Source: a virus. From it: DNA of 33,078 bases. Below the pieces are notes generated by a model. That model saw only the letters and a list, made by a program, of their open reading frames with translations, did no database searches and was not told where the DNA came from. A program made the position numbers and the translations under genes. Positions within the stretch are counted from its first letter, which is position 1. Each line of letters starts with the position of its first letter. Positions 2,063 to 9,971 of this stretch are shown here, one piece after another. The stretch covers positions 1 through 33,078 of the IMG/VR virus record IMGVR_UViG_3300042090_002088, one strand, 5' to 3'.

Positions 2063-3958
2063 TCAGAACCCCGCCGCCGTGGCGACGTAGTTCCACTTCG
2101 ACGTCGCGCTGTTGTAGATGAACAGGAAGTAATCGTACTTGCTGCTGCCCGTCGTCGCCGTGGGGAGCGCAACTGTGCCGCCTGTGTACGCGCTACCCCA
2201 TGAAAACGTCTGCACGTTCGTCGAGCTGATGCGCAACGTCCACTTCTGGCCGTCGACAGGAGTGCCGGTCGGATTGTTGGCGGTTAGCGTGCCCGCGGTC
2301 TGCGTGTTGGCCTGCTCGCTGATGTCGGCGTTGCCGATGTTCGGCGTAAACGATGTCGCATTGGTCAACGTTTCGGTGCGCGGCGCGACAAAGCCGGTAG
2401 CGTTGCCGATATTCGGCGTCGTCAGCGTTGGCGACGTCGCGAAGACAGCATTCCCGCTACCCGTCGCGCCGGCCGCCGTGACGCCGCCAATCGAGATGCT
2501 CGTGCCGAAGGTCTGCAGGGCCGACCACGTCTGCGCGTAATTCGTTTCGGCCAAGGTGCCAGTATTGGCAGGCAGGCTAGCCGTCACGGATCCTAGGGCG
2601 CCCGTCACGGGTTGCACGGTCACCGTGCCGCTCGTCGCGTTACCCAAGGACACGCTACCCGCCGTGCCACTCGCGCCCAGCGACAGCGCACCCGCGGCGA
2701 TCGTTGCGTTCGGCGCGTTGGACACGGCATTCGTGCTCGTCGCGTAGTACGGCAAGTGGCCGCTTGTGCCCGCGTTGACCGTACCGCTGCCCGCCGGCGT
2801 GACCGCTGTGCACGCGGACACCTGATAGTTCGTGCCGTCGCTCGTGATCGTGCACCCCGCATTCGTGGCGACCGCAATGCTCGTGCCGCCGTTCAGCGTG
2901 CTCGGCGAATTCGCCGTGATCGTTGCCGTGCCGGCGCCGATGTCCTGTACGTCCAGCGAGAAGCCGAGACCAAATCCGGTCGTCGACGTATTGGGCAGCG
3001 TGACAGCGATGGCGCTCGCATTGCTGAAGGTAACGAGCTTGGAATTATCGCTGCTGACGAATGTATACGTCGTTCCGGTCTGCGCGTTGATGTTGGAGAT
3101 GAAGGCCAGCGACCCGCTCGCGATGCTCAGGCCGGCGCCGAGGCCAATATTGCCCAGCGAACTGCCGTTGACGTACAGCAGGTAATTACTCGTGCCGCCC
3201 GAGATGCCAGTCGAGCCGACAATCAGGTTGCCAACGCTTGGCGTCGCCCACGTGCCGTTACCGGACCAGAAGGTGGACGCCGATGCTCCCGTGCCGCTGT
3301 TCAAATTGCCAACGGGTAGATTCCCGGTAATGCATGTTGCCAGCGAACACCCGGTAGCGTTGGCGAGTCCAATGGATGCCGGCGTTCCCGTGGCATTCGT
3401 GAGAACAAGCGATGCCGGAGTGCCCGTGGCATTCGTGAGGACGAGCGCGCTCGGCGTGCCGAGTGCGGGCGTCGTAAATGTCGGCGACGTCGTAAGCGCT
3501 ACGTTGCCCGATCCGCTCGTCGGCAGGTTGCCGAGGATGCCAGAGGAGTTGTAGAGCACGTAGCCGTTATTGCCGGCGCTGATCGTCGACGTGCCCACCG
3601 TGAGATTGCCGCCGCCACTTCCCGTACCGCACGGATTGCCGCTGTCCGACAGCGACGTCGCCGACGCCCACTGCACGCAGTGCCCAGTCGTGATGCCGCC
3701 GGTGAACACCGGGATGCTCGCGCCGGCCAGCGAAGCCGCCCCAGTGCCGCCGTACGCGGGCGCGAGCACACCGCTCGTGAAGCCGAGGTACGTCTCCAGA
3801 TTGATCATCTGCGTGCGGTACGTCACCGTGCCGGTGTCGTAGAGCGTGTACCCCGTGCTCAGCACGGTGCTCGTCGTCGGCAACTGGTTGACGACGACCT
3901 GCGCGCTGGCCTGCGCAGCGAACAGGACGGCGAGCAGCAATGCGCGGATGAATTTCAT
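2063..3958 (-). CDS. Tail-fibre-like repetitive protein with Sec signal peptide
   Basis: A 631-residue protein. The start is ATG 3958, preceded at good distance by GGAG (TTTGGAGTCCCAAC). The N-terminus [19 protein letters not shown] is a textbook Sec signal peptide: short basic n-region, leucine-rich core and an A-S-A cleavage site before QVVVNQLP. The mature part is low-complexity and all-beta in style, with repeats such as [20 protein letters not shown] near residues 190-230 and further NATG or GTPxS units. This is typical of phage tail-fibre shafts. The C-terminus ([10 protein letters not shown], then [11 protein letters not shown] and [11 protein letters not shown]) looks like a compact beta domain. 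The gene is probably co-transcribed with the next two fibre genes. A secretion signal on a virion protein is unusual, since phage fibres normally fold in the cytoplasm. The alternative is a secreted phage-encoded surface protein. Confidence 0.75.
3375..3446 (-). repeat. Two tandem 36-bp repeats inside the fibre gene
   Basis: Two near-identical 36-base units (3375-3410 and 3411-3446) encode the repeated peptide ATGTPAS(L/I)VLTN. A decayed third unit follows to about 3480. Such in-frame repeats in fibre genes can expand or shrink by recombination and so change fibre length. Confidence 0.8.
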
Positions 3959-4943: not shown

Positions 4944-5633
4944 CTACGGCCTGAAGTACTGGCCGATCATCGGCGAAATGTAAACCTGCGACGTTTCTAT
5001 GTTCTGCGACGCGGCGTCGTTGTACGCGTCGGCGGCGAGCGCCTTGAGGCCCTCGGCCTTGTCGGGCGCCCAGATCGTCGCGACGCGCCACGCGAGTTCC
5101 AGCGTGAAGGCGTCGAGGAAGTAAATAGGCATCTCGACAGTCGCGGCGTCGGTGAGCACGGCGTCCTGAATCTGGCGCACGCGGTAGTAGTTGAAGCTCA
5201 CCTCGTTGCCGTCGGGCACCGGCCACAGCGTCACGGTGGGCGCGAGGAGGCGGTCAAACCAGTACGTCGTCGGAAAGCCCTGCTGGGCGATATTCGGGTA
5301 GCTCGCGTACTCCGTGCGCGAGATCGGCAGGATGAGGCGATTCGTTGCCCCGCTGCCCGTACCCTGCACGACGTAGGCGTCGAGCATGACGATCGTGTTG
5401 GACGGCACGCCGTACGTGGCCTGTCCCTGCACTAGCGGGACAACCTGCAGATCAACCGCCCACAGGTTTACGCCCTTTGAACTCCAACGCGACTGCAGCA
5501 GGTTGGCGGCCAGCCTGAGCGTCGACATGTGCTCTTGCGTGATGGCGGTATTGCGAATACCGACCATGTTGAACACATAGAGAGCCAGCTCGCCGAGCGA
5601 CGGGTTGAAGTTGTAGGTCGCCGACGTCGTCAT
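4944..5633 (-). CDS. Head-completion / DNA-stabilisation-like neck protein
   Basis: A 229-residue protein; ATG 5633 has a strong AGGAG site 8 bases upstream. The N-terminus (NPSLGELALYVFNMVGI) is followed by a helical stretch with TLRLAANLLQSRWSSKGVNLWAVD, then VPLVQGQATYGVP. This order (aligned helices, then W-S-x-G-x-x-L-W, then an L-x-x-G-x-x-x-Y strand) is what I know from P22 gp4-like packaged-DNA-stabilisation proteins and podoviral tubular-tail proteins. These bind under the portal and close the head after packaging. The middle holds TVTLWPVPDG and FNYYRVRQI strands, and the end is helical. The position between the capsid genes and the tail-fibre genes fits. The family call rests on pattern recognition only. 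Confidence 0.6.
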   Translation of the reverse strand: MTTSATYNFNPSLGELALYVFNMVGIRNTAITQEHMSTLRLAANLLQSRWSSKGVNLWAVDLQVVPLVQGQATYGVPSNTIVMLDAYVVQGTGSGATNRLILPISRTEYASYPNIAQQGFPTTYWFDRLLAPTVTLWPVPDGNEVSFNYYRVRQIQDAVLTDAATVEMPIYFLDAFTLELAWRVATIWAPDKAEGLKALAADAYNDAASQNIETSQVYISPMIGQYFRP

Positions 5634-6977: not shown

Positions 6978-7520
6978 TTACGAGGCGTTGTTGATGCCCT
7001 GCACATAGAACACGCTGAGCGTGCCGATGCCCGCGCCGTTCGCAGACGACACGATGCCGACTTGGACATCGGTGTTGCCGACGTTGTCCCACAGCGCGAT
7101 CGTCGGTCCCGTCGACGGCAGCAGCGTCGTGCTGAGCTGGCCGAGCGCGGTCCACGAACCCACCGCGGCGCCCGTGATCGCCGTGCCCGTCGAGAACTGC
7201 ACGCCGAACGTGCCCGTGCCGATCGTCGTCACCATCATGTAGATGTCGGTGATCTGGCTCTGCGCGGGCAGCACGATGGGGTTGCCACCGTACTGGATCG
7301 CCGTGCCCTGCGTGACGCCAGCCGACGTCTGCACCATGTTGGCGTAGCCCGAGTTGGCGACGCCGAGCTGCGTCTCGCCGACGGCGGCGAGCACACCACT
7401 GCCGTCGCCGTGCACGATGTTGCCGGCGAGCAAGGGGCCCGTGAAGTACGCGCCCGGGAAGATCGGGCTGCCGTTGGCCTGCACGCCCGCAGCGTTGAGT
7501 ACGCCACCATTGATTTCCAT
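6978..7520 (-). CDS. Unknown beta-rich virion protein
   Basis: A 180-residue protein; ATG 7520 has an AGGAG site 6 bases upstream. The composition is Gly, Ala, Thr, Val, Ser and Ile rich with almost no charged residues (NGGVLNAAGVQANGSPIFPG at the start, SVFYVQGINNAS at the end). This points to a beta-sandwich virion protein, for example a head-decoration or tail protein. No family is recognised. The gene is separated from the upstream endonuclease gene by only 8 bases. Confidence 0.6.
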   Translation of the reverse strand: MEINGGVLNAAGVQANGSPIFPGAYFTGPLLAGNIVHGDGSGVLAAVGETQLGVANSGYANMVQTSAGVTQGTAIQYGGNPIVLPAQSQITDIYMMVTTIGTGTFGVQFSTGTAITGAAVGSWTALGQLSTTLLPSTGPTIALWDNVGNTDVQVGIVSSANGAGIGTLSVFYVQGINNAS

Positions 7521-7528
7521 GTCAGCTC

Positions 7529-8170
7529 CTAAGTGCCTGCGTGTCGCTCCACGTAGTCCGCGGCCTTGCGCAGCACTACGGGGTCGTCACCGAGTTTACC
7601 GAGTCCCGTGTTGCACGCAACACATAGTAGCCCGCGAACCCTGCCGCTCTCGTGGTCGTGGTCGACCGCCAGAGCCTTGACCTTGCCGTTGCGCGTCTCG
7701 CATTCCGGCTTCCCGCAAATCGCGCACAGACCGCGCTGTGCTTCAACCATCTCGGCGTAGCGCGCGGCCGTGATGCCGAATCTGCGCTCGCGTTCCTTGG
7801 CGCTCAGCTCCTTCCGACGTACCTCGCGATACGCCCGCTGGTAAGAGGCCCGGCCCTGCCGCGTGGCATGATCATGTCGAGCATCTACCGCAAACCATTC
7901 GACCAAATTCTCGATTCGACAATCATCAACATCACCGTTCAAAAACTTCAAACGGTGCGGCATAACACCGTGAACCCAAAGCCAAGCCAGTCTACTGGCC
8001 TGATAGATGCGACGCCGAACCTTGATGATTCGATGTCCCGCCGCTCCCGGCGTCCCAGCTCTACTGCCTGTCTTGATTCCTTTCCCTCCGCCGATCCACG
8101 TGAAGTGGCCGGTTTGTGGGTCGTAATCCAAGCAGCGCTTCAAGTCCTCAAGATCGATTTCGTCCGCCAT
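7529..8170 (-). CDS. Endonuclease VII-like HNH nuclease with extra N-terminal HNH-type domain
   Basis: A 213-residue protein from ATG 8170. Residues about 145-213 match the recombination endonuclease VII fold: zinc ligands C149 and C152, then DHDH (residues 170-173), then G-L-L-C-x-x-C-N (C183, C186, N187) and a C-terminal LRKAADYV helix. Residues about 10-90 look like an HNH_3-type homing-nuclease domain (LDYDPQTGHFTWIGG, YQASRLAWLWVHG, LNGDVDDCRIENL). There the expected catalytic Asp-His is replaced by Lys-Phe (residues 75-76) and the usual DNR reads DCR, so this half is probably inactive and kept for DNA binding. The gene sits alone between the major capsid gene and a virion gene, as free-standing homing endonucleases do. 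Its middle is visibly less GC-rich than its neighbours, a sign of transfer. The ribosome site lies in a hairpin (8171-8202). Confidence 0.8.
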   Translation of the reverse strand: MADEIDLEDLKRCLDYDPQTGHFTWIGGGKGIKTGSRAGTPGAAGHRIIKVRRRIYQASRLAWLWVHGVMPHRLKFLNGDVDDCRIENLVEWFAVDARHDHATRQGRASYQRAYREVRRKELSAKERERRFGITAARYAEMVEAQRGLCAICGKPECETRNGKVKALAVDHDHESGRVRGLLCVACNTGLGKLGDDPVVLRKAADYVERHAGT

Positions 8171-8202
8171 GATCCGGGCTCCTTTTTAGGTGAGCCCTGA
8201 TC
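8171..8202 (-). promoter_or_regulatory. Hairpin hiding the ribosome site of the endonuclease gene
   Basis: In the minus-strand RNA, GATCAGGGCTC (8202-8192) pairs with GAGCCCGGATC (8181-8171) over 10 of 11 positions, with one A-G mismatch and a 10-base loop. The AAGGAG ribosome site (8184-8179) is half in the loop and half in the stem, and the stem ends directly at the ATG. No T run follows, so this is not a normal terminator. It should lower translation, as 5' hairpins do for several T4 homing endonuclease genes. Confidence 0.65.
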
Positions 8203-8214
8203 ATAACACATTCC

Positions 8215-9129
8215 TTACGACGTCGGGAAGGATCCCCAGATGGATCTCCAGTTATAGTACCCGAAACTATACCTTTCATACCCCTTCACGAGTAAGTTGT
8301 CAGTGACGAAGTCGACCTGCATGTCGGTTTCGAACTTGATGCGCTCCATGTACGACAGGCCGTCGATGTTCGTCAGCAGGAACCACGCGAACTGCGACGT
8401 CAGGAAGTCGTTGACCATGTAGCCCTCGGGCAGTCCGCCCGCGGTGGTCAGGATCGCGTTGACGTCGTTGTCCGCGGTGCCGGCGCGCAGCTCGGTCTTC
8501 GTCAGCCGGATGGCGACGGGTTCCAGCTGCGGGGGCACGACGAGCTTGCGGGCGCGCGCGAACACCTTCAGGCCGGCCTGATCCTTGAAGTTCACGCGCA
8601 CGGCGATCATGCCGTTGAGCAGCGTGGCCTCGTTGAGGTCGACCGCAGTCGTCGGGATGTTCGCGACGGTGCCGCCGTCGATCGGATGGTTGCTCGCGCA
8701 CAGCGCGACGCCGTCGGCGCCAACCGCCGAGTTGTACGTCGTCGCCGTGTTCAGGATGTTCGCGCCGTAGATCTCCTTGGCCTGCTGGAAGCTCTCGATG
8801 AGGCCGAGGTTCGACGGGTGGAACTGCGTCTTGTAGAGGTTGTCGTCGATCGCCTTGCGCGTGATCGCGTAGCCCAGAGCGATTTCGAGGTGCTCCTGCG
8901 CGTACACGTAGCGCTCGCCGGCGCCGTTGTCGAACTGCGTCTGGCCGCCCTCGGTCTTGAGCTGGGCGAGACCGAGGTACCGCATTTCTGCGGTGCGCTC
9001 CAGCGCGAGCTTGGAGTCGTGTTTCGTGAAGATCTTGTCGTACTGCGACGGGATCATCTCGTACTTGCCCTCGACCCCGCGCAGGCCCGGCAGGAGGAGG
9101 TCCTTGATTGCCGAAAGATTGACAGCCAT
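8215..9129 (-). CDS. Major capsid protein
   Basis: A 304-residue protein; ATG 9129 is preceded by AGGAGT at 7 bases. It would form the icosahedral shell. The order of segments matches capsid proteins of the HK97-fold type seen in many environmental phages: an N-terminal helix, MRYLGLAQLKTEGG near residue 50, YVYAQEHLEIALGYAITRKA near residues 75-95, the ALCASNHPIDGG stretch near residue 143, FARARKLVVPPQLEP near residue 190, GLPEGYMVNDFL, and the end segment YSFGYYNWRSIWGS. The gene lies directly after a probable decoration protein and downstream of a scaffold candidate, which is the usual order. A promoter-like site and structured leader precede this gene pair. The protein has no long N-terminal delta domain, consistent with a separate scaffold. 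Confidence 0.85.
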   Translation of the reverse strand: MAVNLSAIKDLLLPGLRGVEGKYEMIPSQYDKIFTKHDSKLALERTAEMRYLGLAQLKTEGGQTQFDNGAGERYVYAQEHLEIALGYAITRKAIDDNLYKTQFHPSNLGLIESFQQAKEIYGANILNTATTYNSAVGADGVALCASNHPIDGGTVANIPTTAVDLNEATLLNGMIAVRVNFKDQAGLKVFARARKLVVPPQLEPVAIRLTKTELRAGTADNDVNAILTTAGGLPEGYMVNDFLTSQFAWFLLTNIDGLSYMERIKFETDMQVDFVTDNLLVKGYERYSFGYYNWRSIWGSFPTS

Positions 9130-9852: not shown

Positions 9853-9882
9853 ATCATGCCGACGCCGCGCGCCCGGAGTCAA
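9853..9882 (-). promoter_or_regulatory. Sigma-70-like promoter for the capsid pair
   Basis: The minus strand reads TTGACT (9882-9877), 18 bases, then CATGAT (9858-9853), matching 5 of 6 and 4 of 6 consensus bases. It follows the strong terminator at 9901-9926 and precedes the decoration and capsid genes, where an independent promoter is needed. The predicted start is near 9846. Confidence 0.5.
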
Positions 9883-9900
9883 CATCGCGTTTTTATAGGC

Positions 9901-9926
9901 AAAAAAATCCCCCGACTAGCGGGGGA
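9901..9926 (-). terminator. Rho-independent terminator
   Basis: On the minus strand a perfect 7-base-pair stem TCCCCCG / CGGGGGA with loop CTAGT is followed directly by seven T. It closes the transcription unit of the upstream head-assembly genes and separates it from the capsid pair. Confidence 0.9.
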
Positions 9927-9971
9927 CAAGAGAGCGGCGGTTGGGGGATGGGATGCCGCTCTGGGGTGCTG

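Follow-up and report, generated by a model that had tools for sequence, protein, structure and literature searches.

A hairpin over the start site of a putative homing endonuclease gene behind a phage capsid gene, with candidate promoters placed inside it

Known leader hairpins of phage endonuclease genes

In I-TevI, I-TevII, I-TevIII, T4 segB and Aeh1 mobE a hairpin that masks the ribosome binding site is combined with an internal promoter, as described in the available passages of PMC2988022. Those passages have the ribosome binding site of the homing endonuclease gene held in the hairpin on long upstream transcripts, and RNA from the internal promoter is without the 5′ arm because of where that promoter sits. 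The gene considered here resembles them in the first respect and may do so in the second, its own candidate promoter having a shuffle p of 0.08. The promoters of the five known cases are, according to the same passages, T4 middle or late ones, whereas those found here look sigma70-like, and their operons are mostly early or middle operons of T4-type phages, in contrast to the present position in the slot behind a capsid gene of another family (PHROG 371). For the T4 genes e, soc, 49 and I-TevI, the accessible part of PMC3014915 describes long RNAs in which a helix takes in the Shine-Dalgarno (SD) sequence and/or the AUG. The nuclease domain of the protein studied here is named after endonuclease VII, the product of T4 gene 49, and the protein adds an HNH_3 N-terminal part; however, as far as that source extends, 49, soc and e are T4 host genes with late promoters and are not mobile, whereas the present gene is a putative homing endonuclease gene. 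The seg43 gene of Aeromonas phage 25 has, in the passages of PMC2988022, a very stable hairpin beside the ribosome binding site of a free-standing endonuclease, as here, but that site is outside the stem and the one described below is inside it. The titles, abstracts and passages searched, which covered few subscription papers, yielded no such leader hairpin outside T4-type phages. The hairpin-lock design is already known from T4-type phages; the present cases depart from these in phage group, in their slot behind the capsid gene, in having sigma70-like promoters and in how often the design recurs.

The gene and the slot it occupies

The window is the whole stretch of DNA analysed, the 33,078 nucleotides of IMG/VR virus record IMGVR_UViG_3300042090_002088. 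The part of its structural operon that matters here contains:

7529 to 8170, minus strand: putative free-standing homing endonuclease gene (HNH_3 + Endonuclease_7), 213 aa, ATG start
8215 to 9129, minus strand: major capsid protein gene (PHROG 371, major head protein), upstream of the endonuclease gene in the same operon
6978 to 7520, minus strand: next gene of the structural operon, adjoining the capsid gene in relatives that lack the endonuclease
9853 to 9882, minus strand: sigma70-like promoter of the capsid transcription unit, TTGACT-18-CATGAT, with both hexamers conserved and the spacer diverged in L082, the closest relative

The endonuclease gene had been described as lying directly after the capsid gene, and the two do adjoin on the minus strand. 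Its product matches the Pfam profiles Endonuclease_7 (E 4e-27, spanning 3-81 of 82 profile positions) and HNH_3 (E 1.3e-5), the PHROG for endonuclease VII, and in the PDB Hpy99I and T4 endonuclease VII. The motifs C..C, DHDH and C..CN are present and are conserved across the family, and the protein is intact, with the metal and catalytic residues of the nuclease domain in place. The gene is present or absent at one and the same slot among close relatives, as is expected of a homing endonuclease, and we regard it as a putative free-standing one. In capsid relatives, fetched by similarity, the slot either holds an endonuclease gene or is unoccupied, with the capsid gene then adjoining the next structural gene. 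Most members of the fusion family sit in this slot. A capsid gene is upstream in 125 of the 163 full-length members of the HNH_3 plus endonuclease VII fusion family with a called start, a fraction biased upward because retrieval was partly seeded from the capsid slot. A scan of the minus strand of the window revealed no terminator between the capsid and endonuclease genes, so read-through RNA is expected. Further upstream, within 9853-9927 of the minus strand and 617-700 of L082, an intrinsic terminator, GTCCCCCGCTAGTCGGGGGATTTTTTT, precedes the promoter of the capsid unit, and both are kept in L082.

The hairpin in the window

Read from the capsid stop, the minus strand is TAAGGAATGTGTT-ATGATCAGGGCTC-ACCTAAAAAG-GAGCCCGGATCAT-G, with the following elements:

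8192 to 8204, minus strand: 5′ arm of the hairpin, ATGATCAGGGCTC, from the fold and conserved in L082
8182 to 8191, minus strand: loop, ACCTAAAAAG, 10 nt, from the fold
8169 to 8181, minus strand: 3′ arm, GAGCCCGGATCAT, from the fold, holding half of the SD sequence and the start codon
8179 to 8184, minus strand: SD sequence AAGGAG, from the sequence, with an opening cost of 9.3 kcal/mol

The preliminary description gave the stem 10 pairs and one mismatch; the hairpin and its single mismatch (A.G) stand, and the stem is slightly longer, with 12 Watson-Crick pairs over arms of 13 positions each. It had also been said to reach the start codon and to cover half of AAGGAG, which it does, as GAG sits in the helix, the A and U of the ATG (8170-8168) are in the core and its G is in a wobble pair. 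Three weak pairs (G-C, U.G, U.G) could extend it past the ATG. The 44-nt fold has an MFE of −19.5 kcal/mol (z = −4.2, 0 of 200 shuffles as stable), and 17.9 kcal/mol are needed to open the region from SD to start (z about +3.3), more than for any other of the 17 scored minus-strand genes. Masking of the SD sequence and start codon in the window is well supported.

Rarity of the hairpin was rejected as evidence because shuffled windows hold similar ones: each shuffled 33-kb window has about 0.8 hairpins of 13 positions with a loop of 3-12 and no more than one mismatch. That number is what a chance hairpin without function has in its favor, and the argument rests on the position and conservation of the hairpin instead. 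The sole hairpin of this size in the window falls exactly on the start site of the endonuclease gene, and this placement, together with the conservation in L082, the class-wide enrichment and the out-of-sample replication described below, makes chance barely credible.

An intrinsic terminator was considered at this position and rejected, as the 3′ arm is followed on the minus strand by GGCGGACG, with no U-tract, and the terminator scan finds none there. The covariance models of Rfam 15 gave no match within 8100-8300, even at E ≤ 10.

The closest relative

L082, a 4.2-kb IMG/VR contig, has the same gene order as the window, a capsid protein 97% identical and an endonuclease 69-72% identical. 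Its endonuclease start region, TAAGATGTAGTATGATTGGGTCTCTTAAAAGGAGCCCCGATCATG, folds into a homologous hairpin over the SD sequence and start codon, with a shorter loop. Loss of the stem where the gene is kept had been named at the outset as evidence against sequestration; L082 keeps both. Four stem positions and the loop length differ between the two hairpins, the stem changes including one C-G to U.G, the mismatched pair to G-C and one G-C to a mismatch. This hairpin type is represented by two sequences, the window and L082, with no double compensatory change between them, and covariation from the pair by itself was set aside as uninformative since two sequences cannot prove it. An exact pattern scan for further copies found the contig of L082 only, and a contig search with a narrow query found no close relative.

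In the window and L082 the capsid stop is just 7-13 nt before the stem, and the footprint of a ribosome terminating there would reach the weak lowest pairs. Translational coupling, in which the base of the stem is opened by ribosomes that finish at the capsid stop and endonuclease synthesis is thereby tied to capsid translation rather than shut off, has this proximity in its favor; however, such a ribosome would reach the weak extension pairs (8205-8207) only and not the 12-pair core, and for the majority of the class 40-120 nt separate the capsid stop from the hairpin. We consider coupling quite unlikely.

Masking across endonuclease insertions

Relatives with and without the gene were compared at the post-capsid slot, beginning with 24 distinct endonuclease insertions and 77 phages that have another gene there. 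The median cost of opening the region from SD to start is 14.2 kcal/mol for the insertions and 7.3 kcal/mol for the other slot genes (p 5e-7), and the start is masked at a shuffle p ≤ 0.05 in 18/24 against 1/77. As the pattern was first noticed on these 24, two further sets were fetched and scored by fixed automatic rules. After removal of 5′ regions at least 80% alike, this fresh set comprised 42 new capsid-adjacent insertions, of which 28 have masked starts, compared with 3 of 32 family members located elsewhere; the endonuclease insertions are homologous, so full independence of the counted cases cannot be assumed. Endonuclease genes in the post-capsid slot are thus masked as a rule, and masking is very rare both in the other genes found there and in family members elsewhere. 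Together with the −19.5 kcal/mol fold and the conservation in L082, this class-wide pattern supports the original proposal that the hairpin sequesters the ribosome site, which we take to be probably correct.

A GC-rich hairpin a few bases past the capsid stop is common in relatives that lack the endonuclease, and the window hairpin likewise begins about 10 nt past the stop. It could accordingly be an ordinary post-stop hairpin, serving 3′ protection, processing or attenuation, on which the start of the endonuclease gene landed by accident. In the relatives without the endonuclease, however, the SD sequence and start are outside the post-stop hairpin, with the single significantly masked case among 77; L205, L200, L199 and L202 have, besides the post-stop hairpin that they retain, another over the SD sequence; and insertions far from the capsid stop also mask theirs. 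This origin is unlikely.

A significantly masked start is missing in some insertions, namely L064 (by scoring), L200 and L206. L050/L057, L170 and L203 have in the same slot short endonuclease VII genes without HNH_3 and without a hairpin; these start near or overlap the capsid stop and are possibly a coupled alternative. In L147/L148 the family member lies 580 nt past the capsid stop, behind the next gene, and no hairpin masks its start. In L266 and L257 a hairpin about 45-95 nt past the capsid stop has 12 plus 5 pairs and a T-run of 7-9 and takes the endonuclease SD sequence into its stem, and so combines a terminator with an SD mask; only these two have both the T-run and the SD sequence in the stem.

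Promoters that would start inside the hairpin

The promoter element proposed for the window is:

8200 to 8205, minus strand: candidate −10 hexamer TATGAT (extended TGtTATGAT, 8200-8208), with a predicted start near 8193, in the 5′ arm

The scan pairs it with a poor −35, TTCCCG (8224-8229), at a spacer of 18 (shuffle p = 0.08), in a region restricted by its overlap with capsid codons. TATGAT is also present in L082 (promoter-scan shuffle p = 0.095); it is largely forced by pairing, being for the most part the complement of GATCAT at the start codon. A hexamer of the form xATGAT is a plausible −10 here, since the hexamers of the capsid promoter are kept in L082 though the spacer has changed. The evidence for an internal promoter of the window's own is only suggestive. 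With an RNA start at 8193 the calculated opening cost would fall from 17.9 to 5.7 kcal/mol.

With a simple sigma70 matrix and the best-scoring promoter taken per sequence, the RNA start falls at −37..−18 in 21/24 endonuclease insertions and in 9/77 other slot genes. With such a start, opening becomes cheaper by 5 kcal/mol or more in 16/24 insertions against 0/77 (Fisher 5e-13), a test that is partly circular where a masked start coincides with a promoter at −30..−18, for which reason promoter position was tested separately against other slot genes and shuffles. The fresh set repeats both results, with the start at −37..−18 in 34/42 insertions and 13/32 family members elsewhere, and relief of at least 5 kcal/mol in 26/42 and 1/32. 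With both sets pooled, the start of the best sigma70-like promoter is inside the hairpin in 55/66, and as the RNA starts there, the gene's own transcript would lose the 5′ arm. Individual scores are weak (shuffle p ≤ 0.05 in 10/24). The promoters of class members resemble TTGACA-17-TATAAT, as the following illustrate:

L119: TATAAT-TGGCACTCC..GGAGtctTGCCA
L155: TATAAT-GGCATCTCC..GGAGATG
L206, promoter: TTGACG-17-TATACT
L205, promoter: TTTACA-17-TATAAT
L200, promoter: TTGACA-17-TATATT
L199, promoter: TTGACA-17-TATATG

The preliminary description mentioned, for T4 homing endonucleases, late transcripts starting inside the hairpin; starts at that place are predicted for the class considered here, but from sigma70-like promoters and not from T4 late ones. 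A T4 late promoter (TATAAATA) was rejected as the internal promoter, the window having TATGAT and the class sigma70-like elements.

Covariation in one subfamily

Twelve insertions of one subfamily could be aligned through promoter and hairpin. In 9 of the 12 stem pairs there are changes on both sides, and the covariation is 0.455 against 0.257 ± 0.031 when shuffled (0/500). When the structure is slid it drops to 0.10-0.16, a difference that is tilted toward the true register, as one of the aligned sequences supplied the structure string. L036 and L275 show another compensatory change, from CCGTTGCC/GGCAATGG to CCGTCGCC/GGCGATGG. In the −10 of this subfamily T-12 and A-11 never vary, and 10/12 have T-7.

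The near-perfect dyad overlaps the candidate −10, and I-TevI autorepression at its operator is known (available passages of PMC2988022). The inverted repeat could by analogy act as DNA, as a promoter-overlapping operator bound by the endonuclease or some other repressor. Against this, the arm sequences are wholly different between insertions yet include the SD sequence in most, and the wobbles in the subfamily core match the sense strand, with 12 G.U against 3 A.C, which points to sense-strand RNA rather than a DNA dyad. As the explanation of the repeat an operator is very unlikely, though an operator role could coexist with one in RNA.

Proposed mechanism

We think it probable that the hairpin is a translational lock on a homing endonuclease gene behind the capsid gene, from which the gene's own transcript is free. 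On capsid read-through mRNA the 5′ arm would pair with the end of the SD sequence and the start codon, and the endonuclease would hardly be translated; RNA from its own promoter, whose −10 is in the 5′ arm, would start within the hairpin, be unable to fold it and be translated. The endonuclease would in this way be uncoupled from the strong capsid mRNA and made from its own transcripts only, though the lock may simply keep a DNA-cutting enzyme below capsid levels. The structure, its conservation in L082 and the class-wide enrichment and covariation are observations; that translation is repressed in the cell, that the promoter is active in this phage, and when it would act, are inferred. Both the capsid promoter and the candidate internal one look sigma70-like.

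A broader proposal, which we advance tentatively and with slightly less than even confidence, is that the capsid-slot endonucleases form a lineage with a portable cassette, in which a sigma70-type −10 and start are built into the 5′ arm of the masking hairpin. The gene would yield no product from the abundant capsid mRNA and would be expressed through promoters of host type, possibly early ones, so that the logic of T4, with its timing reversed, would have evolved or been maintained outside T4-type phages. In a phage group other than the T4-type, dozens of insertions into one slot share the design, with replicated statistics and covariation, and this recurrence behind the capsid gene suggests that a mobile gene needs a lock behind a very strongly expressed host gene. 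The insertions also offer testable rules for the expression of such genes and ready natural variants.

Other RNA structures in and near the slot

GC-rich hairpins of variable sequence are present a few bases past the capsid stop in L006, L008, L012, L029 and many others. The SD sequence of the next gene is outside them, and they are possibly attenuators or mRNA-stabilizing hairpins.

A separate conserved RNA element occurs outside the window, in L001 (~5010-5085), L002 (~1247-1325), L354 (~3660-3740) and about 26 more loci, where it directly precedes the SD sequence of whichever gene comes next after the capsid gene or after its endonuclease. Searched against Rfam, it has no match at the gathering score and, at E ≤ 10, only weak ones at chance level. 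Its three helices, CTAGG/CCTAG, a variable one of 9 bp, and CTGCAC/GTGCAG beside GGAG, are in double pseudoknot order, and GACCG..CC.AGCGGAC and AGAC are invariant. Over 19 distinct copies, pairing is kept in 98.4% of cells, with covariation at 0.522 against 0.162 when shuffled (0/500); the element is possibly a new cis-regulatory RNA.
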